Assembly (NCBI GenBank): GCA_020720115.1
Contig: DYPD01000022.1
Coordinates: 1-42,508 of the forward strand
Length of the DNA stretch: 42,508 nucleotides
Direction: 5' to 3'
Origin: Thiomargarita sp.
GTDB taxonomy: Bacteria; Pseudomonadota; Gammaproteobacteria; Beggiatoales; Beggiatoaceae
Shown piece by piece: positions 9,241 through 39,691 of this stretch. The position numbers were made by a program, and so were the translations under genes. Under the pieces are notes generated by a model. The model had not been told where the DNA came from. It did no database searches and worked only from the letters and a program-made list of their open reading frames with translations. The first letter of the stretch is position 1. Each line of letters begins with the position of its first letter.

Positions 9241-9335
9241 CCCGCCTGAAACTGCTCTCATGGATATTGTTAAGTAATTAAAAATCAATCGGTTGCATGA
9301 AATTTGATAGAGCAAAAAATGCGGTTTCTGGCGGG
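9241..9335. mobile_element. Family-B miniature inverted-repeat element, copy 1
   Basis: The ends CCCGCCTGAAACTGC (9241-9255) and GCGGTTTCTGGCGGG (9321-9335) are inverted repeats with two mismatches. The AT-rich interior aligns with copy 2 at 32196 (shared TAATTAAAA, TTGATAGA, CAAAAAATGC). It encodes no protein. The repeated occurrence with conserved ends supports a MITE or a REP-like unit. Confidence 0.6.
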
Positions 9336-9417
9336 TATGAATATAACTCGCTATTGCACGACTATTTTAGGCAGCTTTCGCTAAATGCTGCATGAAATGA
9401 CAATAAAACATACATAG

Positions 9418-10044: not shown

Positions 10045-10905
10045 ATGTTTGAGCGTACTCGTCATCATCTTCTGATGGGCTTGGTGACCAGCGCGGTGCT
10101 CATCGTCTCTGCACCGGCTTGGTCTGTAGAAAGAAATCCTGGTTTGCTGATTGACAGTTCCGGCGAACCCGTTATGTCTGGTGCAGGTGATTGCGTAACC
10201 ACTGCCTCTCCAGGTTATACCACAAGTGAAAAATGCGGCGACACCTTCGATTCAGACGGCGACGGCGTAACAGATGACAAAGACAAATGTCCTAACACAC
10301 CTAAAGGCGTAAAAGTTGACGCCAATGGTTGCCCGATAGACAGCGACAAAGACGGCGTACCTGATTATATGGATAAATGCCCGAACAACACCCCGCTGGA
10401 AATTTCCGCTGGCGTTGATAAATCCGGTTGTCCGTTGGATAGCGATGGTGATGGCGTGGCTGATTACCGCGATAAATGCCCAGGTACTCCGGCTGGCACT
10501 CCAGTAGACGAAGATGGCTGTCCTCCGCAGATGGAGGTGGTAGAAATTAAAGCTACTATGTCCGATTCCGAAGGCAAGGTGAACTTTGACTTTGGCAAAG
10601 CCGTTATCAAGCCACAGGGCAAAGCAGAGCTGGATAAACTGGTAGCCTCCGTTAAAGCGGCTTACAGCATTGAAAGTGTGAGCGTAACCGGTCACACCGA
10701 TAGCGTTGGTAGTGACAAGTACAACCAAGGGTTGTCAGAAAAACGCGCTCAAGCCGTAGCTGATTACTTACGCAGCCAAGGCGTAGATGTTGGAATGAGT
10801 GCCATTGGTAAAGGTGAATCCTCACCCGTTGCCAGCAATGCAACCAAAGCAGGTCGTGCACAAAACCGTCGTGTAGAAATTCTCATCAAAGCGACACGCA
10901 AATAG
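10045..10905 (+). CDS. OmpA-family outer-membrane protein with thrombospondin type 3 repeats
   Basis: The start ATG 10045 follows GGAAGGA and yields a signal peptide ending near APAWS. Residues ~70-165 are Asp-rich calcium-binding TSP3 repeats (DSDGDGVTDDKDKCPNTPKG type, about three to four copies). Residues ~175-283 form an OmpA-like peptidoglycan-binding domain with VNFDFGKA, VTGHTDSVG and the NRRVEI ending. It probably tethers the outer membrane or a calcium-stabilised surface structure to the cell wall. It stands alone: an efficient terminator follows, and no operon partner is seen. Confidence 0.92.
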   Translation: MFERTRHHLLMGLVTSAVLIVSAPAWSVERNPGLLIDSSGEPVMSGAGDCVTTASPGYTTSEKCGDTFDSDGDGVTDDKDKCPNTPKGVKVDANGCPIDSDKDGVPDYMDKCPNNTPLEISAGVDKSGCPLDSDGDGVADYRDKCPGTPAGTPVDEDGCPPQMEVVEIKATMSDSEGKVNFDFGKAVIKPQGKAELDKLVASVKAAYSIESVSVTGHTDSVGSDKYNQGLSEKRAQAVADYLRSQGVDVGMSAIGKGESSPVASNATKAGRAQNRRVEILIKATRK

Positions 10906-10940
10906 TAAAATTATCGGCTTTAGCCGGTAATTAACCGCTA

Positions 10941-10972
10941 ACAGCGCCACCTTCGGGTGGCGCTGTTTTTTT
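10941..10972 (+). terminator. Rho-independent terminator after the OmpA-family gene
   Basis: ACAGCGCCACC (10941-10951), loop TTCG, GGTGGCGCTGT (10956-10966) and a run of seven T. This is a textbook UUCG-capped terminator 36 bp after the stop codon. Confidence 0.92.
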
Positions 10973-11031
10973 GTGCTGTTCCTATTGTCTTGTGAGGATT
11001 TACCCATAGATTTTCTGGCTGGTTTTTTATA

Positions 11032-11120
11032 TAGTCGGATTACTGAATCTTTAAAATAAAAGATATATAAAATCATATGCTTAATAATTATAAAAATATA
11101 ATTATTGAGTAATCCTACTA
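11032..11120. mobile_element. Family-A MITE, copy 1 (89 bp, TA target duplication)
   Basis: An 89-bp AT-rich element with ends TAGTCGGATTACTGAAT and, inverted, TAGTAGGATTACTCAAT, flanked by TA at 11030-11031 and 11121-11122. It is identical by eye to the reverse complement of copy 3 (16136-16224). The rest of the 540-bp gap between the OmpA gene and rapA is AT-rich and holds a terminator-like hairpin at 11329 but no gene. Confidence 0.85.
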
Positions 11121-11328
11121 TACACATCAAGACTGTCAAAAACTGACATATTGACGTACTTTAGCAAAGCCTGATTAAGTATCTAATTAATTGTAATTAG
11201 TGTAATTATTTATTTATTTTGCATGACTCAGTAAATTTTTTTGTAAAAAGCTTAAAAAATGAAGAAATAATTTGCAATAAATGAACTTTTGCAGTATCCT
11301 AATACCCGATTCTCTTCTATCACTATTG

Positions 11329-11362
11329 GCTCGGTAAGCTCTGCTTCACCGAGCTTTTTTTT
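11329..11362 (+). terminator. Orphan terminator-like hairpin upstream of rapA
   Basis: GCTCGGT (11329-11335), a 12-nt loop, ACCGAGC (11348-11354) and eight T (11355-11362). No open gene lies between the previous terminator at 10972 and this one, so it may end a small RNA or sit in a long rapA leader. Confidence 0.55.
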
Positions 11363-11387
11363 GTCCGCATTTTGGCTCTCCGCTCCG

Positions 11388-11393
11388 TATAAT
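11388..11393 (+). promoter_or_regulatory. Probable -10 element for rapA
   Basis: A perfect TATAAT lies 54 bp before the rapA start, downstream of the orphan terminator. No good -35 is seen at 16-18 bp; TTGTCC at 11361 is 21 bp away. Weak prediction. Confidence 0.3.
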
Positions 11394-11447
11394 AAATATC
11401 AAGCAGATTTTTCAGCGCCTTTTTCAAAAACAATTCAAGGAACCTCT

Positions 11448-14333
11448 ATGGCAGACTTTATTCGCGGGCAGCGTTGGATCAGTGATACAGAATCCGAACT
11501 CGGCTTAGGCTTAATCCTCGAAGTAGATGTGCGGCGTGTGACCGTGCTATTTCCCGCCGTTGACGAAACGCGCCTCTATGCCAAGGATCAAGCCCCCTTA
11601 ACCCGCGTGCGTTTTCAGCTTGGCGATACCATCAGCAGTCATCAGGGCGAATCATTAGAAATCACGGACATAGAAGAACGACAAGGGGTGTTGACCTACA
11701 TCGGCAAAACAGCAGAAGGCAACAGCAAGCGCCTGCCGGAATTGCAACTGGCGCATCACATCCAATTTTCCAAACCCCAAGATCGTTTATTTGCCGGACA
11801 AATTGATGCGCCCAAATGGTTTGATTTGCGTCTGGAAACATTACAAAAGCGCAGTCGGCTGGCGCAATCGCCCGTGCGCGGTTTACTTGGCGCACGTTTA
11901 AGCCTGATTCCTCACCAGCTTTACATCGCTCAAGAAGTCGCCAGCCGTTATGCGCCGCGTGTCTTGCTGGCAGACGAAGTGGGATTAGGTAAAACCATTG
12001 AAGCCGGGTTGATTTTGCATCAACAATTGTTCACCGAACGGGCGCGGCGCGTGCTGCTGCTGGTGCCTGGTACCCTGGTGCATCAATGGTTAGTGGAAAT
12101 GTTACGGCGCTTTAATTTGCGTTTCAGCATTTTTGACGAAGAGCGTTGTGTGGAAGCAGAAGCAGATACCGGCAGCAATCCTTTTCTAACCGAACAACTG
12201 GCACTCTGTAGCCTGAGTTTTTTCCTCAAGCGCCCTAATCGCCATGCGCAAGCCGTTGAAAGTACCTGGGATTTACTGGTCGTAGACGAGGCGCATCATT
12301 TAACCTGGACAGCAACCCAAGTCAGCCCGCAATACCATTTAGTAGAACAACTGGCGCAACGCACTCGCGGGCTACTGCTACTGACCGCCACGCCAGAGCA
12401 ATTAGGACAAGCCGGACATTTTGCCCGTTTGCGCTTGCTAGACCGCCATCGTTTTTATGATTATCAGGCTTTTTTGCAAGAAGACGCGCATTACGAGCCG
12501 GTTGCCAATGCAGTGCAGCAACTCCTCAGCGACGAGCACTTATCTGCCACTAACTTGCAGCCCTTGCTGGACAAGTTGGGCGAAGGCGAACAAGCCTGGC
12601 TGCAAGTCTTGCACGACACCAGCGCAGACGCCGCAGAGCGGGAACAAAGCCGGCAACGCTTACTCAACCTGTTGCTGGATCGGCATGGCACCGGGCGCGT
12701 GTTGTTTCGCAACAGCCGCGCTACGATAGCCGGATTTCCGCCGCGCAAAGTGCATTTTTATCCGCTACCGCTACCACCAATCTACCAAGACTTAGCGCGG
12801 GCGCTATACCCAGAAGTCTCTATTCAAAGCGTCCGCCCCACGCCGCTAAGCGAAACCTATGACGCACCCAGCACGCCGAGCAATCCCAGTTGGTGGACGC
12901 TCGACCCGCGTGTTGGCTGGCTGATGACAACGCTGGCGGCATTGAAACCGGAAAAAGTGTTAATCATTTGCGCCCACGCCCAGACTGCGCTGGATTTGGA
13001 TGAATGCCTGTTTGCTCAAGGTGGCATCCGCTCCACCGTGTTTCACGAAGGCTTAAGCATCGTACAGCGCGACCGCGCCGCCGCTTACTTTGCCGACACC
13101 GAAAACGGCGCACGGGTGCTGGTGTGCTCAGAAATCGGCAGCGAAGGGCGCAATTTCCAATTCGCACATCACCTGGTGTTGTTTGATTTACCCCTCAATC
13201 CCGACTTGCTGGAGCAACGTATTGGGCGCTTAGATCGCATTGGACAGACACAAACCATCCAAATTCATGTGCCTTACCTAAAAGACAGCGCCCAAGAAAC
13301 CCTTTGCCACTGGTATCAGCAAGGCTTAAACAGCTTTGAACACACCAGCCCCGCCGCCGCAGGCGTATTTGCCGAACTGGGCGAGCGCCTGCAACACGGC
13401 TTGCAAGACGCCAATGCCGATGCCAAAACACTGCTGCAAGACACCCAAGCCCTGCACCAAAAACTACGCGAGCACCTGCAAAAAGGGCGCGATCACCTCT
13501 TAGAAATGAATTCTTGCCGCCCGCAGATCGCTGCCCGCTGGGTTGACGCCGTTGAGCAGCAAGACGACGACGCCACATTACAACCCTTTGTCGAGCAACT
13601 CTGTGATTGCTTCGGCATTCAACTGGACGAACACAGCGACAACATCTGGCTCATGCAGCCCACCGAACACCTGTTAGCCACCGGTCTGCCGACACTGGAT
13701 GAAGACGGCATGTTAGTCACCTTTGAACGCGACACCGCGCTCATGCGCGAAGACGTGCAATTCCTCACCTGGGAACATCCACTGGTGCGCGGCGGCATGG
13801 ACTGGGTACTCGGTAATGAACTGGGCAACACCGCCCTGATTACCCTCAAGCACCCACAATTGCCCGCCGGCACTCTGCTGTTAGAAAGCCTATTCAGCGT
13901 CGTGTGCGCCGCACCCGCGCATTTACAGCCGGATCGCTTCGCCCCGGCGCTGGCGGTACACTTGCTGCTGGATCAACAGGCTACAGATTGGAGTCGGTTG
14001 TTGCCCATCGGCAATTTGCAAGGCGCACAAGCAGTAGACATACAAACCGCCCGCCGTTTAGTCAAAGCCGCCAGAGAACCCTTAGAAACCCTGGTAAAAC
14101 TCAGCGAGGCACAAGCTGCCAAACACCTACCCAGGCTCATTCAAACCAGCATTGCCCTCATGGAAAACAGCCTACAACCAGAAATTGAGCGTTTACACGC
14201 CTTGCGTCAAGTCAATCCCAATGTCCGCGAAGAAGAAGTGATTTTTGTGGAAAATCAAATCGCTAGCCTACGCCAACAACTGCAAGTGGCGCAATTACAA
14301 CTACAAGGCATCCGCGTGTTGCTGGCAACTTAA
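11448..14333 (+). CDS. rapA: RNA polymerase-associated SNF2 ATPase RapA (HepA)
   Basis: RapA is a SWI2/SNF2 ATPase that binds RNA polymerase and aids its recycling after transcription. The ATG at 11448 follows AAGGA and gives 961 residues starting MADFIRGQRWISDTE, the usual RapA N-terminus and size. Domains: N-terminal Tudor-like region (~1-110), helicase lobe 1 with Walker A DEVGLGKT (176-183) and the DEAH box (280-283), helicase lobe 2 with EGRNFQFAHHLVLFDLP and RIGRLDRIGQ, then the RapA-specific C-terminal domain. The in-frame extension to 11289 crosses a hairpin and has no ribosome site. A strong bidirectional terminator follows. Confidence 0.96.
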   Translation: MADFIRGQRWISDTESELGLGLILEVDVRRVTVLFPAVDETRLYAKDQAPLTRVRFQLGDTISSHQGESLEITDIEERQGVLTYIGKTAEGNSKRLPELQLAHHIQFSKPQDRLFAGQIDAPKWFDLRLETLQKRSRLAQSPVRGLLGARLSLIPHQLYIAQEVASRYAPRVLLADEVGLGKTIEAGLILHQQLFTERARRVLLLVPGTLVHQWLVEMLRRFNLRFSIFDEERCVEAEADTGSNPFLTEQLALCSLSFFLKRPNRHAQAVESTWDLLVVDEAHHLTWTATQVSPQYHLVEQLAQRTRGLLLLTATPEQLGQAGHFARLRLLDRHRFYDYQAFLQEDAHYEPVANAVQQLLSDEHLSATNLQPLLDKLGEGEQAWLQVLHDTSADAAEREQSRQRLLNLLLDRHGTGRVLFRNSRATIAGFPPRKVHFYPLPLPPIYQDLARALYPEVSIQSVRPTPLSETYDAPSTPSNPSWWTLDPRVGWLMTTLAALKPEKVLIICAHAQTALDLDECLFAQGGIRSTVFHEGLSIVQRDRAAAYFADTENGARVLVCSEIGSEGRNFQFAHHLVLFDLPLNPDLLEQRIGRLDRIGQTQTIQIHVPYLKDSAQETLCHWYQQGLNSFEHTSPAAAGVFAELGERLQHGLQDANADAKTLLQDTQALHQKLREHLQKGRDHLLEMNSCRPQIAARWVDAVEQQDDDATLQPFVEQLCDCFGIQLDEHSDNIWLMQPTEHLLATGLPTLDEDGMLVTFERDTALMREDVQFLTWEHPLVRGGMDWVLGNELGNTALITLKHPQLPAGTLLLESLFSVVCAAPAHLQPDRFAPALAVHLLLDQQATDWSRLLPIGNLQGAQAVDIQTARRLVKAAREPLETLVKLSEAQAAKHLPRLIQTSIALMENSLQPEIERLHALRQVNPNVREEEVIFVENQIASLRQQLQVAQLQLQGIRVLLAT

Positions 14334-14350
14334 AACCTTCAGCCCTGCCC

Positions 14351-14382
14351 ACCAAAAAGCCGCCCGAAGGCGGCTTTTTGGT
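14351..14382. terminator. Bidirectional terminator between rapA and the phosphatase gene
   Basis: A 14-bp perfect stem ACCAAAAAGCCGCC (14351-14364) / GGCGGCTTTTTGGT (14369-14382) with loop CGAA. The A-rich and T-rich arms serve both convergent genes. Confidence 0.92.
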
Positions 14383-14409
14383 CCAAGCAGTATCAAGCTG
14401 GGATTGGTG

Positions 14410-15477
14410 TTAGGCGGCTTGCGCCAGCGGGAAATGGAGTTGTTTTAGCACTACGAGGGTGATGTCATCGAGCGGATGTTTGCCGCCGAGATGCAGCTCT
14501 ACATCGGCGATTACCTGGTCGCGCAATTGTGCTGCTGTGCTGTGCTTCCAATGCTGGGTAACCACCTCGCATAAGCGATCCAAACCATAGCATTGCCCTT
14601 GAGGATTAAAGGCTTCAGTAACGCCGTCGGTATAGAGCACGAGACCGTCGCCAGGGAGCAGTTGAATTTCCTGATGTGCGACAAAATCCGAAATATCTTC
14701 CTGTAAACCCACCATAAAACCCAAGTCTATCGTGTCTATGCGCTGTATTTTGCCATCAGCGGTGACTTTGAGCACTTCTTCGTGCTGTCCGCTCAAACGC
14801 AATAGTCCACTTTGGTAGTCCAGCAAGACCAGCGTTAGGTTTTTGTCCGTCTGCATACGCTGTACATTGCCGTACAGCGCACGGTTGAGGACATTGAGAA
14901 ACTGCTTGGGATCAAGCACATTATTAGCCAGCAAAGTGCGCACAGCCATTTGCACCATCAGCATCATCACGCCACTTTCCAATCCATGTCCGGTGACATC
15001 GCCAATGCCGATTTTTACTATGCCGTTATCTTGTAACACATCATAGTAATCGCCGCCCACTTCGGTTGCAGGCTGCATGAAGCAGGCAATATCTAATTCC
15101 TTGATTTGACTCAGTTCATGCGCTTTAGGTAAGACCATTTGCTGTAATTGGCGAGTGATTTCCAGTTCTGTACCCATGCGCAGGTTTTCAGCTTTTAGGC
15201 GTTCATTTAGCTTAGAAATTTCACTGTTGGCTTGTTCTAGGTCGCAAGTGCGTTCAGCAACGCGCCGTTCGAGTTCTTCGTTTAAGCGTTCCTGCGCAGT
15301 GACCTTTTCTTCAATGGATGCCAGCAATTGATTGGTCGTAAAAGCAACAAGCCCTAATTCATCTTGCGTGTGCCCCTTGGGAATATCCAGCCGTAGTTTT
15401 TCTGGGTTATGTGCATCAATCTGCGCCAGCCGTTCGCTGAGCAGAGACAGCGGGCGGGTAATGAGGATGCGCAGCAT
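14410..15477 (-). CDS. HAMP + PP2C (SpoIIE/RsbU-type) phosphatase, C-terminal part of a gene split by a MITE
   Basis: This fragment holds the end of a membrane helix, a HAMP domain (RPLSLLSERL region), a coiled coil and a full SpoIIE/RsbU-like serine phosphatase domain. The metal-binding motifs are intact: GGDYYD, GDVTGHG, LYTDGVTE and LDDITLVVLK. Such enzymes dephosphorylate anti-anti-sigma or similar partner-switching proteins. The parent gene began at 16099 and is cut by the 89-bp element at 15513-15601; deleting 91 bp (element plus one TA) rejoins the two parts in frame as a 532-residue receptor phosphatase. The Met at 15477 could start a shortened protein lacking the sensor, but no ribosome site is evident. 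A terminator follows at 14351. Confidence 0.75.
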   Translation of the reverse strand: MLRILITRPLSLLSERLAQIDAHNPEKLRLDIPKGHTQDELGLVAFTTNQLLASIEEKVTAQERLNEELERRVAERTCDLEQANSEISKLNERLKAENLRMGTELEITRQLQQMVLPKAHELSQIKELDIACFMQPATEVGGDYYDVLQDNGIVKIGIGDVTGHGLESGVMMLMVQMAVRTLLANNVLDPKQFLNVLNRALYGNVQRMQTDKNLTLVLLDYQSGLLRLSGQHEEVLKVTADGKIQRIDTIDLGFMVGLQEDISDFVAHQEIQLLPGDGLVLYTDGVTEAFNPQGQCYGLDRLCEVVTQHWKHSTAAQLRDQVIADVELHLGGKHPLDDITLVVLKQLHFPLAQAA

Positions 15478-15512
15478 CCAGTAAAATAAACTCGCCAGCA
15501 GCAGCGCATATA

Positions 15513-15601
15513 TAGTCTGATTACTGGATTTTTATAATAAAAAATATATTAAATCATATACTTAATATCTATGAAAACATAATTATTGAGTAATCCTACT
15601 A
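15513..15601. mobile_element. Family-A MITE, copy 2, inserted inside the phosphatase gene
   Basis: 89 bp with ends TAGTCTGATTACTG and, inverted, TAGTAGGATTACTC, flanked by TA at 15511-15512 and 15602-15603. This is the most diverged copy, with many substitutions in the interior. It falls within the second transmembrane helix codons of the phosphatase gene; its first three bases in gene orientation, TAG, are the premature stop. Confidence 0.85.
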
Positions 15602-16099
15602 TAACAAGCCGCTCACAATGGTCAGACGGGTACGTTTAGCAAAGCTTTCCGCCAGTAAGAAAATATCTACCTCGGCTTTCAGCACGCCGTATTCGTGTTC
15701 CTCGTTTTTCAATTTGACTGCATAGCTGCTATACGACTGAAATAAGCGTTGCGCCAGCCACGCCCAGCGAACTTGCGCCAATTCACGCTTCTCTTCTGCC
15801 ATTACCTGGGTGTACTCGTTTTGCAGCGTCACCTGATAAAACAAGCGGTATTTAGAAATACCATGCACCACTCCCTGCGCCAGCACTGTGTCAAAGTTGT
15901 AAGCAGCTTGCAACGCCGGGGTTTTGCCAATTTCCAGCACATCCAACGCAGTGCGCTGGGCTTCGTTACAGGTATCCACATAATCAAAAGCAATCTGTAA
16001 ACTGCTGAATAACAGCCCCAAGCTCAAGGCAATTAACAGCATATATTTAGCTTGTTTGAAATATAGGCGTTGTTTAAGAGGAATTTCGGTCAACGACAT
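15599..16099 (-). pseudogene. Sensor half (N-terminal) of the MITE-split phosphatase gene
   Basis: 166 codons encode a short cytoplasmic start, a membrane helix (~19-38, MLLIALSLGLLFSSLQIAF) and a ~115-residue periplasmic sensor, then enter the second helix (RLTIVSGLL), where the stop lies inside the MITE. On joining with the downstream part the helix reads on as YALLLASLFYWML, a convincing membrane segment. The start ATG follows the original end of the substrate-binding gene by only four bases once copy 3 of the MITE is removed, so the two genes formed one operon: periplasmic binding protein plus membrane phosphatase. As it stands, the sensor piece lacks any output domain. Confidence 0.75.
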
Positions 16100-16135
16100 A
16101 AGGTTAGTTCGCTTGCAGACTGTACTTGCGTTTTA

Positions 16136-16224
16136 TAGTAGGATTACTCAATAATTATATTTTTATAATTATTAAGCATATGATTTTATATATCTTTTAT
16201 TTTAAAGATTCAGTAATCCGACTA
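16136..16224. mobile_element. Family-A MITE, copy 3, at the 3' end of the substrate-binding gene
   Basis: 89 bp flanked by TA at 16134-16135 and 16225-16226, in inverse orientation to copy 1 and identical to it by eye. It interrupts the last codons of the binding-protein gene and separates it from the phosphatase gene. Confidence 0.88.
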
Positions 16225-16980
16225 TAGTACATTAATTTGAATTGCTTGTTCACCCAGATAGCGGTTAAATGCAGTGATCAATGCAGGATGCTTCAAGGTA
16301 GACAGATGATAATAACTACGATCATGCGGCAACTCTGGAACAAAGAGCAAAACTTGTTTGTCCGCTTTGAGTTGTTCAGGCACCGGCACATGGGATTTGC
16401 CCGCATTGATTTGTTGCAAACGATAGAGTCCCACATCAATATTGGCATAAATGCCCTCTAAACGATGCCCAATTAACGCCATCAGCAACAGACTATCATA
16501 ATGCTTAACATCAATGCGCTGCACCAGTCCGGTTTCTACCCGATTTTGCCAAAACGGCAGCAGCGTAAAGCCCAAAATAGTTGCTAATTGTTTGATCTGT
16601 TCAACTTGCACAGTACCCTGGTAAGGGCGTATGAGAATGCCATCAATATATGCCACTACGGGCAGACTATAAGTGATATTCACTTTTTCCTTAAGTGTTT
16701 TGCTCCATGCCGGATGATCAGGATATTTAAAGTCCACCGAGCCGTCCACCAATTCACGAAACAAACGCCCAACAGGTAAAGGTTTATATTCCAAGCGAAT
16801 ACCCTGTGCAGCAGCAAAATTATCGAGCATCTCCCGCGCAAAGCCATGATACTCATACTCTTTAGTCATGCCGTAATGCGGATAATAATCATGGTTTTCC
16901 ACACCCACCAGATAGGTTTCTTGTGCATACACTAAATGCCAACAGTAGAACAAAAAAACCAGGCTAACAATGCGCAACAT
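16222..16980 (-). CDS. Periplasmic substrate-binding protein, family 3 type (C-terminus altered by a MITE)
   Basis: The product has a signal peptide (IVSLVFLFYCWHLVYAQ) and the layout of family 3 solute-binding proteins: VGVENHDYYPHYG at the first strand, GFAREMLDNFAAAQGI, then a two-lobed periplasmic domain of 252 residues. No permease or ATPase is adjacent, and the next gene is a membrane phosphatase, so it probably senses a ligand for that receptor rather than serving transport. The stop codon TAG (16222-16224) belongs to MITE copy 3. Removing 91 bp extends the protein by KRKYSLQAN to a TAA four bases before the phosphatase ATG. The loss of nine C-terminal residues may leave it functional. 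Confidence 0.8.
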   Translation of the reverse strand: MLRIVSLVFLFYCWHLVYAQETYLVGVENHDYYPHYGMTKEYEYHGFAREMLDNFAAAQGIRLEYKPLPVGRLFRELVDGSVDFKYPDHPAWSKTLKEKVNITYSLPVVAYIDGILIRPYQGTVQVEQIKQLATILGFTLLPFWQNRVETGLVQRIDVKHYDSLLLMALIGHRLEGIYANIDVGLYRLQQINAGKSHVPVPEQLKADKQVLLFVPELPHDRSYYHLSTLKHPALITAFNRYLGEQAIQINVL

Positions 16981-16982
16981 AC

Positions 16983-17195
16983 TTAAAACCCCAGATGAAA
17001 AAAGACTGTTGGATTCACTTCAAAGCCATAATCTACACCAAAGAAATTATTGCTGATTTCAATTTCAATACCCACAGCAGCTTTAGCAAGCCAATCATGG
17101 CTATTCATAAATTGTTTCAGCGGCACATGCAGTTGCAGCTCAGTTAGCAACACAACACCCACATCCTGACTCAGCAGGATAGCGCCAAGCAAAGC
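16983..17195 (-). pseudogene. C-terminal remnant of a probable outer-membrane beta-barrel protein
   Basis: About 70 codons, opened by a TTG or GCT after an in-frame TAG and without a start or ribosome site, end in TVFFHLGF and stop 2 bp before the binding-protein ATG. The alternating hydrophobic strands and terminal aromatic residue resemble the last strands of an outer-membrane barrel. Upstream (17196-17435) is AT-rich and holds nothing I can support. Probably a decayed first gene of the sensory operon. Confidence 0.35.
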
Positions 17196-17435
17196 CTAGC
17201 CAACCATCCACTATTTTTGTTACAAAAATTGCAGCAATCTGTGCTTTTAACAGAAGACTCTAAATGGCTGTTTTTTTAGGAGAAAAGGCTGAATAAAGGC
17301 GGCAAAATATTTATAAAAATAGTAAGTTAGAAATGCTTTGAAATATTTTGGCTTGACGAAAAAGTGTAAGGGGCTACTTTTGCTTGGAAACTATCTAATC
17401 GCTTCAAAAACTTGCATAAACAATTGGTTATTTCG

Positions 17436-23618: not shown

Positions 23619-25355
23619 ATGAGCCTGAAAGAACAACGCGCCAAACAAAAGCAACGCAACCAAGAGAAAAAAGCCCAGCGGCGTGGGGAATTGACACCGG
23701 CTGATAAGTTAGTCAATCAGGGTACCGCTTATGCTAAACAAGCTTTATATGACCAAGCCTTAGAATGCTACAACCAAGCCATTCAACTCAATCCAAAACT
23801 GGCCGAGGCTTATGTCAATCGCGGGAATTTTTATAGAAAACAAGAAAACTACAGTCAAGCCTTAGCGGATTACAACCAAGCCATTCAACTCAATCCTCAA
23901 TATGCTGCGGCTTATGCCAATCGCGGGAATCTATATGCAGAACAAAAAAACTTCCCCCAAGCCTTAGCAGATTACAATCAAGCCATTCAACTCAATCCAA
24001 AACTAGCGGAGGCTTATGTCAATCGAGGGCTTATTTATGCAGAACAAAAAAACTTCCCCCAAGCCTTAGCAGATTACAATCAAGCTATTCAACTCAATCC
24101 AAAACTGGCTGCGGCTTATGCCAATCGCGGATTTGCTCATTTAGATTTGGAAAATACTGAAGCTGCTTTTGCTGACCTTGATAAATTTATTGAATATTCA
24201 GAGGATAATGAGTTAAAGCAGCAAATAGCCTTAGTTGCTCATTCTGTTGCTTTGTCTAACAATGAATTTAGCAAAGCGCGTGATTATGTAGAACAAGCCT
24301 TTGCACAGGCGGCAACAGAAACAAAACAACATCAGAAAATCTATTTAGATAATATCGAGAAAACAGAAGCACTTTATAATAAAACCAAAGAACTGGAAGA
24401 GACCAACAAGAAACTTGCCGAAGCCCATAAAAAACAGGAAAATCTCCTGCGCGAGTTCACCCATATGTTAGGCAGCACCCTGTTTCCAGAAACACTGCTA
24501 GATATTGCCAACACGTTAAAAGAACACAGTACATTGCAAGAACAAATCAAACGGCTATACGATGCCTACCATGCCGAGCTTACCGTGCGCCGTCAAAGCG
24601 AATTATTGCGTGTGCGCTATTTCACAGATAGCCCCCATCGCTTTATTGAACTGGTGACAGACGGTTGTATTAAAACTGACAGCGAAGATGCTGGCAGCAA
24701 TGTGCTGGATGTGTTTGAATCTGCATTGGAGCGCGTTATCGCAAGATTGCTCAGTGAACACTATGATAAACTCAAAACACCAAGAGGCATCTTGCTGCAA
24801 CTATTGAAAACAGATGTGCTGAAATTACGCAACGAGTTTAAAGCCCATGTGTTCTTGGAAAACAAACCCTTATTAGACTGGATTAACAGTCGCTTAATGC
24901 CCGTTAGTATCCAACAAGAACCCTCAGCATGGGATAGAGTCCGTTTCAAAATTGGTGGCACTACAGAATCTTTGTTTTACAGTTATTTTAATGAGCTTTT
25001 GTTAAATGCTATTAAATACGCTGATTACACACAAGGACTAGTAGTGCGGTTTTATCAACAGTACATAGATGAAACCCTGTATTTGTGTTTTTCCATTGAA
25101 AATACCAGCCGCGTTGGTATTGTGTCAGGTTCACAAATTGGTTTAAAAAGTCTGCGTAAAAATTTAGCCCAATTAAATAGTGCAGATACACCTGAAAAAA
25201 TACTGCAAGTACAGCAAGAACAGGGGCGATTTAAGGTGACATTGGCTATTCTAAAAGACATTTTGCTATATGAACCCACAGCAGAAGATGATGAAGCGAT
25301 ACCGGAAAGCTTTAGACGTGGGAAAGCATTAAGACAACAACACCAAGCAGTATGA
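23619..25355 (+). CDS. TPR-fused divergent histidine kinase, sensor of a candidate Detocs-like system
   Basis: A soluble 578-residue protein: a basic start, four near-identical tetratricopeptide repeats (~28-165) plus weaker ones (~165-235), a coiled coil (~235-275), a dimerisation segment with candidate phospho-acceptor H282 in EFTHMLGSTLFPE, and a GHKL ATPase domain. The N-box is clear (NELLLNAIKYA, from N458), but the usual DxGxG G1 box is absent and the G2 area is reduced to SGSQIGL (503-509). No membrane segment or signal peptide, so it senses something in the cytoplasm through the TPRs. The receiver gene starts 10 bp after its stop, so the two form an operon. The Detocs defence sensor DtcA is likewise a TPR-histidine kinase. 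Catalytic activity is inferred, not certain. Confidence 0.8.
   Translation: MSLKEQRAKQKQRNQEKKAQRRGELTPADKLVNQGTAYAKQALYDQALECYNQAIQLNPKLAEAYVNRGNFYRKQENYSQALADYNQAIQLNPQYAAAYANRGNLYAEQKNFPQALADYNQAIQLNPKLAEAYVNRGLIYAEQKNFPQALADYNQAIQLNPKLAAAYANRGFAHLDLENTEAAFADLDKFIEYSEDNELKQQIALVAHSVALSNNEFSKARDYVEQAFAQAATETKQHQKIYLDNIEKTEALYNKTKELEETNKKLAEAHKKQENLLREFTHMLGSTLFPETLLDIANTLKEHSTLQEQIKRLYDAYHAELTVRRQSELLRVRYFTDSPHRFIELVTDGCIKTDSEDAGSNVLDVFESALERVIARLLSEHYDKLKTPRGILLQLLKTDVLKLRNEFKAHVFLENKPLLDWINSRLMPVSIQQEPSAWDRVRFKIGGTTESLFYSYFNELLLNAIKYADYTQGLVVRFYQQYIDETLYLCFSIENTSRVGIVSGSQIGLKSLRKNLAQLNSADTPEKILQVQQEQGRFKVTLAILKDILLYEPTAEDDEAIPESFRRGKALRQQHQAV
23937..24107 (+). repeat. 102-bp tandem DNA repeat within the TPR region
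   Basis: Bases 23937-24005 and 24039-24107 are nearly identical at a period of 102 bp (34 residues), differing at only a few positions, and the flanking units are close copies. Such DNA-level identity points to recent duplication and possible repeat-number variation. Confidence 0.8.
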
Positions 25356-32195: not shown

Positions 32196-32291
32196 CCCGC
32201 CAGAAACTGCTCTCAGGGAAGTTGATTAAATAATTAAAAGTCAATTACTTATATCAAACTTGATAGAACAAAAAATGCAGTTTCTGGCGGG
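32196..32291. mobile_element. Family-B miniature inverted-repeat element, copy 2
   Basis: Perfect 15-bp terminal inverted repeats CCCGCCAGAAACTGC (32196-32210) and GCAGTTTCTGGCGGG (32277-32291) around a 66-bp AT-rich core related to copy 1. It lies between murL and cysQ, 43 bp before the cysQ start. Confidence 0.7.
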
Positions 32292-32334
32292 TATGATTAT
32301 AGTGTGTAGCAGCTTAGATTTTTGAGGAATCAAT

Positions 32335-39334: not shown

Positions 39335-39408
39335 GATGGCTGGAAACTGTGTGAAGTATAAGCAATTTTCGATGCTGCTGCGCTGAGCGTTTGAAGCCTG
39401 GAATTATA

Positions 39409-39497
39409 TAGTAGGATTACTCAATAATTATATTTTTATAATTATTAAGCATATGATTTTATATATCTTTTATTTTAAATATTCAGTAATCCGACTA
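39409..39497. mobile_element. Family-A MITE, copy 4
   Basis: 89 bp flanked by TA at 39407-39408 and 39498-39499; one substitution from copy 3 by eye. It lies in the divergent gap between the REC-kinase and yfiR genes, 75 bp before the kinase start, so it may alter expression of either. The rest of the gap (39500-39691) shows no gene or clear promoter. Confidence 0.88.
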
Positions 39498-39691
39498 TAG
39501 TACAGAATATTTTCTTTCGGCGCATTGCTAGGGTTAAGCGCATTATTGCAAATACGCGACAACTGCCCGCTCAAAATAGGTCAATAATTAAAGTGCCACA
39601 GCCCCCTATTTCATTATGTTGCCATGTTTTTCTGCTATCTAGTCCAAAATCTTAGCGTTTCGCTATTCAACAAAATACAACAGGGGTTGTT

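Follow-up and report, generated by a model that had tools for sequence, protein, structure and literature searches.

MITEs that interrupt genes have been described in Candidatus Thiomargarita nelsonii (Beggiatoaceae), at hupL and in a dsrA intron (PMC4853749). In Anabaena sp. 90, 15 of 147 MITEs were reported to lie in disrupted open reading frames (PMC3542288). For ISY100, an IS630 element, excision by the transposase in vitro was reported to leave TATATA, 4 bp beyond the empty TA site (PMC2170065). MITE-split genes are already a known kind, and the case presented here is a further example. The window, by which we mean the whole stretch of 42,508 nucleotides analyzed, holds four copies of a 93-bp repeat with inverted ends, and two of them lie in neighboring genes of the same direction (Table 1).

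Table 1. Positions of the MITE copies and of the interrupted gene pair in the window
Feature	Position	Strand	Description
MITE copy 1	11030-11122	+	majority type
Phosphatase gene, 3' half	14410-15510	-	rest of TM2, weak HAMP match, linker, SpoIIE domain
MITE copy 2	15511-15603	+	93 bp with the two TA counted; minor variant, shared identically by 3 of the 67 copies examined
Phosphatase gene, 5' half	15599-16099	-	TM1, predicted periplasmic sensor, start of TM2; stop TAG (15599-15601) supplied by the MITE
Solute-binding-protein gene, severed 3' end	16104-16133	-	KRKYSLQAN, stop TAA (16104-16106)
MITE copy 3	16134-16226	-	majority (39-copy) type; severs nine terminal codons from the solute-binding-protein gene
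Solute-binding-protein gene	16222-16980	-	252 residues; now ends at the MITE TAG (16222-16224)
MITE copy 4	39407-39499	-	differs from the majority type by one base; variant represented by 15 of the 67 copies

Results

The upstream open frame of the split gene codes for 166 residues and ends at a TAG inside copy 2. The next frame in the same direction (14410-15477, 355 residues) begins at an ATG (15475-15477), which is a possible internal start of the 3' half, in frame from 15510. The net insertion is 91 bp at a TA target. When 91 bp (15511-15601) were removed from the sequence so that one TA was left, the two halves joined into a single frame of 532 codons that reads ...RLTIVSGLL-YALLLASLFYWML... 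across the junction. Kyte-Doolittle analysis of the joined protein gave hydrophobic stretches at about residues 18-39 and 157-184, and the junction (residues 166/167) falls within the second of these, TM2. The ORF coordinates and the joined sequence bear out the preliminary description, which had placed the stop at 15599-15601 and predicted that removal of 91 bp would yield a 532-residue frame with a second membrane helix.

The 3' half contains a SpoIIE catalytic domain (PF07228, 127.7 bits against a cut-off of 25, E 7e-37), in agreement with the earlier claim that the catalytic part is intact downstream of the MITE. A match to HAMP (PF00672) after TM2 scored 16.9 bits, below the cut-off of 25. 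Scans of the sensor half against Pfam (E 0.1) and NCBIfam (E 0.001) gave no match, and relatives of it were found in 14 of the 57 genomes, the own genome included. Judged by eye from their C-terminal ends, these relatives precede outputs resembling histidine kinases, GGDEF or EAL proteins and an adenylate cyclase. Because they stand before such different outputs, the sensor half is probably a shared input module, and the gene probably encodes a receptor phosphatase with the architecture TM1-sensor-TM2-SpoIIE.

Among the 57 genomes searched (own included), G021, which belongs to another genus of the same family, carries an uninterrupted full-length orthologue of 527 residues. It is 65% identical to the joined protein over residues 1-523, with 70% identity in the phosphatase half and 58% in the sensor half. 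The alignment is gapless at the junction (RLTIVSGLLYALLLASLFYWMLR versus RFTLLTGLAQALLFATGLFLLLR); its sole gap, of three residues, lies further on, in the linker preceding the phosphatase domain. The predicted junction thus held against an uninterrupted relative, although G021 is no sister strain. Together with the joining of the empty site and the hydrophobicity analysis, the orthologue also upholds the claim that the MITE splits a receptor phosphatase inside TM2. In a 19-base search, the right-hand end of the MITE had 72 exact matches in the genome, against 0 for a reversed-pattern control. Since this end is so abundant and the uninterrupted relative is gapless, chance is excluded, and the observation of a MITE-split phosphatase is confirmed. 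By the comparison with G021, the insertion of copy 2 is younger than the split of the G021 and window lineages, which is as fine as the dating goes.

The only other genome of the same genus, G001, holds related, non-orthologous genes (at best 55% identical for the phosphatase and 38% for the sensor). The phosphatase half is 56% identical to a sequence of Candidatus Parabeggiatoa (L076), and from this one named hit the host probably belongs to the family of Candidatus Thiomargarita nelsonii. The own genome contains 18 matches to the phosphatase half, the split gene itself counted, so the loss of this one phosphatase may be buffered by its other relatives there.

The preliminary description lacked a second insertion, in the gene upstream. 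Copy 3 sits 34 bp upstream of the phosphatase ATG and cuts the end of a gene whose product scored 24.3 bits with SBP_bac_3, just below the cut-off of 26.4. Removal of copy 3 (91 bp) returns the nine residues KRKYSLQAN to this solute-binding protein; the neighbor in G021 ends in KHKYHLQAE followed by TGA. At the empty site the stop of the solute-binding-protein gene lies 4 nt before the phosphatase ATG, compared with 3 nt in G021. The solute-binding protein is 54% identical over 228 positions to the product of the gene beside the G021 phosphatase. Within 1.5 kb on each side, a relative of it was found at 3 of 21 sensor loci, namely those of the window, of G021 and of G033, the last with a cyclase-like output. 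When 42 family genomes were searched with the protein, 5 had a match, own included (those in G005 and G020 being short or weak), and G001 had none. The solute-binding protein and the receptor phosphatase are encoded by an orthologous gene pair, which probably forms an operon. Both genes of the pair were hit, and by different MITE variants (the 39-copy type and the 3-copy type).

We then surveyed the repeat in the whole genome. The census required both ends 60-140 bp apart and drew on 60 fetched stretches plus the window, which together cover 70 of the 72 right-hand ends, the window's four included; those on C156 and C157, cut at contig starts, were left out. Fifteen unpaired ends were excluded (contig-end pieces, a truncated copy, a nested copy and the ends of other elements). 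All 67 paired-end copies are 93 bp long: 39 share one sequence, 15 represent a one-base variant of it and 3, including copy 2, are of the minor type. The element is short and non-coding, with stops in all six frames, and has terminal inverted repeats with TATAGT..GATTACT at both ends. Its 67 copies are inserted at a TA within roughly symmetric A/T-rich surroundings, and the one-TA empty sites at copies 2 and 3, which agree with G021, indicate duplication of the TA target. As the near-identical copies at different sites are all of one length and 39 of them do not differ at all, they most likely stem from a recent burst of this probable IS630-type MITE. The MITE gave no match in G001 of the same genus, in line with a recent spread.

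At E 0.001 the MITE matched in 10 of 57 genomes, own included. Save in G005, the matches in other genomes were pieces of 25-56 bp at 79-96% identity, which we took as chance A/T-rich matches. At the end of contig C102 of G005, a genome of another genus, 55 bp (L050 1501-1555) are 100% identical to the MITE, which would reflect either horizontal spread or contamination of the G005 assembly. A plasmid source and a viral source were rejected: blastn against 72,556 plasmid records gave no match to the MITE, and its left 19 bases had no exact match in the viral contigs. A plasmid search with 14300-17200 returned 113 records, at best 65-69% identical over 8-22% of the query; the five listed all match in the phosphatase-domain part and are uninformative on the source. 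No known RNA family was found in 10900-17200 at gathering thresholds. MITE copies 2 and 3 fold better than dinucleotide shuffles on both strands (z -3.2 to -6.2), which is expected from the inverted ends alone. Two other repeats were seen in the window: a tandem repeat at 23753-24130, with three overlapping copies of a 174-nt register at 102-bp spacing, and another dispersed repeat, of 76 bp, whose copies at 9270-9345 and 32226-32301 are 84% identical.

A search of the own assembly with the DDE_3 model found one decayed remnant, on C48, and no intact IS630 transposase gene. The DDE_3 piece lies in a remnant ending in TATAGTAAGATTACC and TATAGTGAAATTCCT. An exact search gave 29 IS630-like ends in the own genome. 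At least 26 lie no more than about 55 bp from where a contig ends, the two on C48 are internal, and the C168 end was left out of this count. Twenty loci were given for these ends, and all 18 off C48 break off 50-55 bp inside the element. This pattern suggests that a multicopy IS630 is present and that the assembly collapsed and dropped its interior. In two related genomes, coordinate arithmetic places like ends around a DDE_3 match. At L185 of G018, TATAGTAACATTCCT stands at both ends, 1016 bp apart, around a decayed match with no stop-free stretch of more than 130 codons, and at L180 of G003 ends 999 bp apart bracket a match in a 299-residue open frame. Counted by hand, the MITE and the hidden IS ends have 11-12 of 15 terminal bases in common; further in, the similarity is weak and was reached by 25 of 500 shuffles. 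The hidden IS630 likely mobilizes the MITE in trans.

A rough test was used to find other genes split by the MITE: the frame spanning a copy had to have 150 codons or more, with 20 or more on each side. Such a frame was found for 23 of 67 copies, against 937 of 1340 random TA sites in the same stretches, so the copies avoid frames; where a copy lies close to a contig end, its flank is short and it may be mis-scored as outside a frame. The test also misses short losses, and copy 3, which is followed by only 10 codons, is outside the 23. Fifteen of these frames are cut well inside. The upstream piece has just 20-37 codons in five others (L089, L091, L114, L121 and L127), where it may be a leader, and the downstream piece has just 23-32 codons in the remaining three (L120, L123 and L124). 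Neighboring MITE copies less than 650 bp apart form 5 pairs by hand count, against 0.87 expected for 72 copies placed uniformly. Local hopping was rejected as the reading of this close spacing, since copies avoid frames and insertions gathering in tolerant stretches would explain it equally.

At L083 (own C15, 3059-3151) the MITE splits nifB between its radical-SAM and NifX-like parts, and this is the only full-scoring nifB found in the genome. At L101 (own C79, 2001-2093) it splits an ammonium-transporter histidine kinase in the transporter domain, at profile position 206/210. In both cases the two pieces match one family in order, and at L103 and L122 both pieces match the same repeat families. 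The family search, which passed over the short pieces of L091, L114 and L127 (upstream) and of L120 and L124 (downstream), gave no family for the pieces searched of L090, L117, L120, L124 and L132.

Two further observations concern individual copies. In L094 (own C48:33211-37083), a minor-type MITE at 1717-2019 has itself received an insertion of about 200 bp. This nested element, with ends AGGACTTTCGC, looks like a MITE of another kind. The copies at 2587-2679 of L086 and 2487-2579 of L118 share one flank of 60 bp but not the other, a pattern that recombination or a larger repeat at the MITE could have produced.

Discussion

A MITE burst very probably hit this probable operon twice, with loss of the phosphatase function. 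In the proposed history, an IS630 transposase would have moved an IS630-type MITE in trans, and the resulting recent burst would have struck a two-gene operon (solute-binding protein, then receptor phosphatase) at two places, and the insertions would have become fixed in the population. Within TM2 of the phosphatase, copy 2 would have caused a frameshift and supplied a stop, and so parted the sensor from the SpoIIE domain, which most likely destroys signal-controlled phosphatase activity. Copy 3 would have made the solute-binding protein nine residues shorter and placed its stop farther from the phosphatase start. Both halves of the phosphatase gene are otherwise open, which fits a recent loss and, equally, residual use. 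Most likely, the gene was recently inactivated by an ordinary insertion, and insertions of this kind are on record from what is probably the same bacterial family.

On the other hand, the 3' half may be expressed alone. The preliminary description suggested that the Met at 15477 could start a sensor-free, perhaps constitutive phosphatase, and the SpoIIE domain is indeed intact. A promoter-like site was also seen at 15625-15598 on the minus strand, with the MITE end as its second hexamer; however, promoter-like sites occur here at the level of chance (7 versus 4.8 +/- 2.4 in shuffles). The residue at this Met is Leu in the G021 orthologue, no Shine-Dalgarno sequence was seen by eye at the usual distance, and the start and first residues would fall in half a membrane helix. 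The suggestion is therefore weak, and we consider such a product unlikely.

Another alternative is that the insertion is reversible, or that empty alleles coexist in the population or within a polyploid cell and restore the receptor. The MITE copies are recent and near-identical, the remaining phosphatase gene is open, and the only full-scoring nifB found is split likewise, so that full loss everywhere could be costly. However, no empty second allele was seen in the assembly, and among the 18 phosphatase-half matches in the own genome the 9 others listed, the best of them, are just 51-66% identical. Excision of the ISY100 type would leave 4 bp and keep the frame broken: with a TATATA footprint at the copy 2 site, the frame stops after 198 codons. 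It is therefore doubtful that excision restores the gene; restoration would take either an unusually clean excision or repair templated by an intact copy. The excision on paper in the preliminary description was right for the ancestor, as the empty site and G021 indicate, but not for the expected excision product, which would be out of frame. In the part of the Candidatus Thiomargarita nelsonii report that deals with hupL, PCR gave no other version of the gene (PMC4853749). Reversible or mixed alleles at this locus thus seem improbable, more so than a sensor-free product. The broader proposal, in which the split genes (phosphatase, nifB, ammonium-transporter kinase and others) are all reversible or mixed and MITE gain and clean loss act as a genome-wide phase switch, appears very improbable.

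We give almost no weight to an assembly artifact, a false join of two unrelated stretches at a repeat. The MITE is present in many copies, and many contigs here break in such repeats, but both flanks belong to a single gene whose orthologue is continuous, and the neighboring gene is also the orthologous one. Ribosome bypassing, which occurs in phage T4 gene 60, was rejected for the MITE, as no matched take-off and landing pair was seen by eye (TTA as the last codon ahead of the gap, ATA ahead of the landing site).

With loss of the phosphatase through a MITE burst as the preferred reading, the locus presents a clean case of such a burst breaking a signaling gene pair, with orthologous empty sites for both insertions, in a host that is a probable relative of the large sulfur bacteria. 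The double hit on a single gene pair and the presence of nifB among the other targets add to its interest. If intact alleles coexist, up to 23 split frames (about 15 cut well inside), including nifB, would bear on the question of mixed-allele tolerance.

Among known proteins, the SiaA-like receptor phosphatases (NF038263) resemble the product in that its C-terminal half aligns to model positions 334-654 of 658. This half scored 73.7 bits, far under the family cut-off of 700, and the sensor half, which matches no family model, gave no match when scanned alone. Among known elements, ISY100 of the Tc1/mariner/IS630 group was described as duplicating a TA target upon insertion and having short inverted repeats, as seen here, but it encodes its own transposase (PMC2170065), whereas the present MITE, with stops in six frames, codes for nothing visible. 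The Anabaena sp. 90 MITEs likewise made pseudogenes; they are 77-541 bp long, were assigned by the authors to type II and have no evident matching IS ends (PMC3542288). The closest likeness in host is with Candidatus Thiomargarita nelsonii, a probable relative, in which MITEs are also multicopy and gene-interrupting, and the TATA ends of the dsrA type were likened to IS630 (PMC4853749). Compared by description, the hupL MITE of that bacterium is about 205 bp long with 10-bp direct and 19-bp inverted repeats (PMC4853749), while the MITE described here has 93 bp and a TA target, and hit both genes of a pair.
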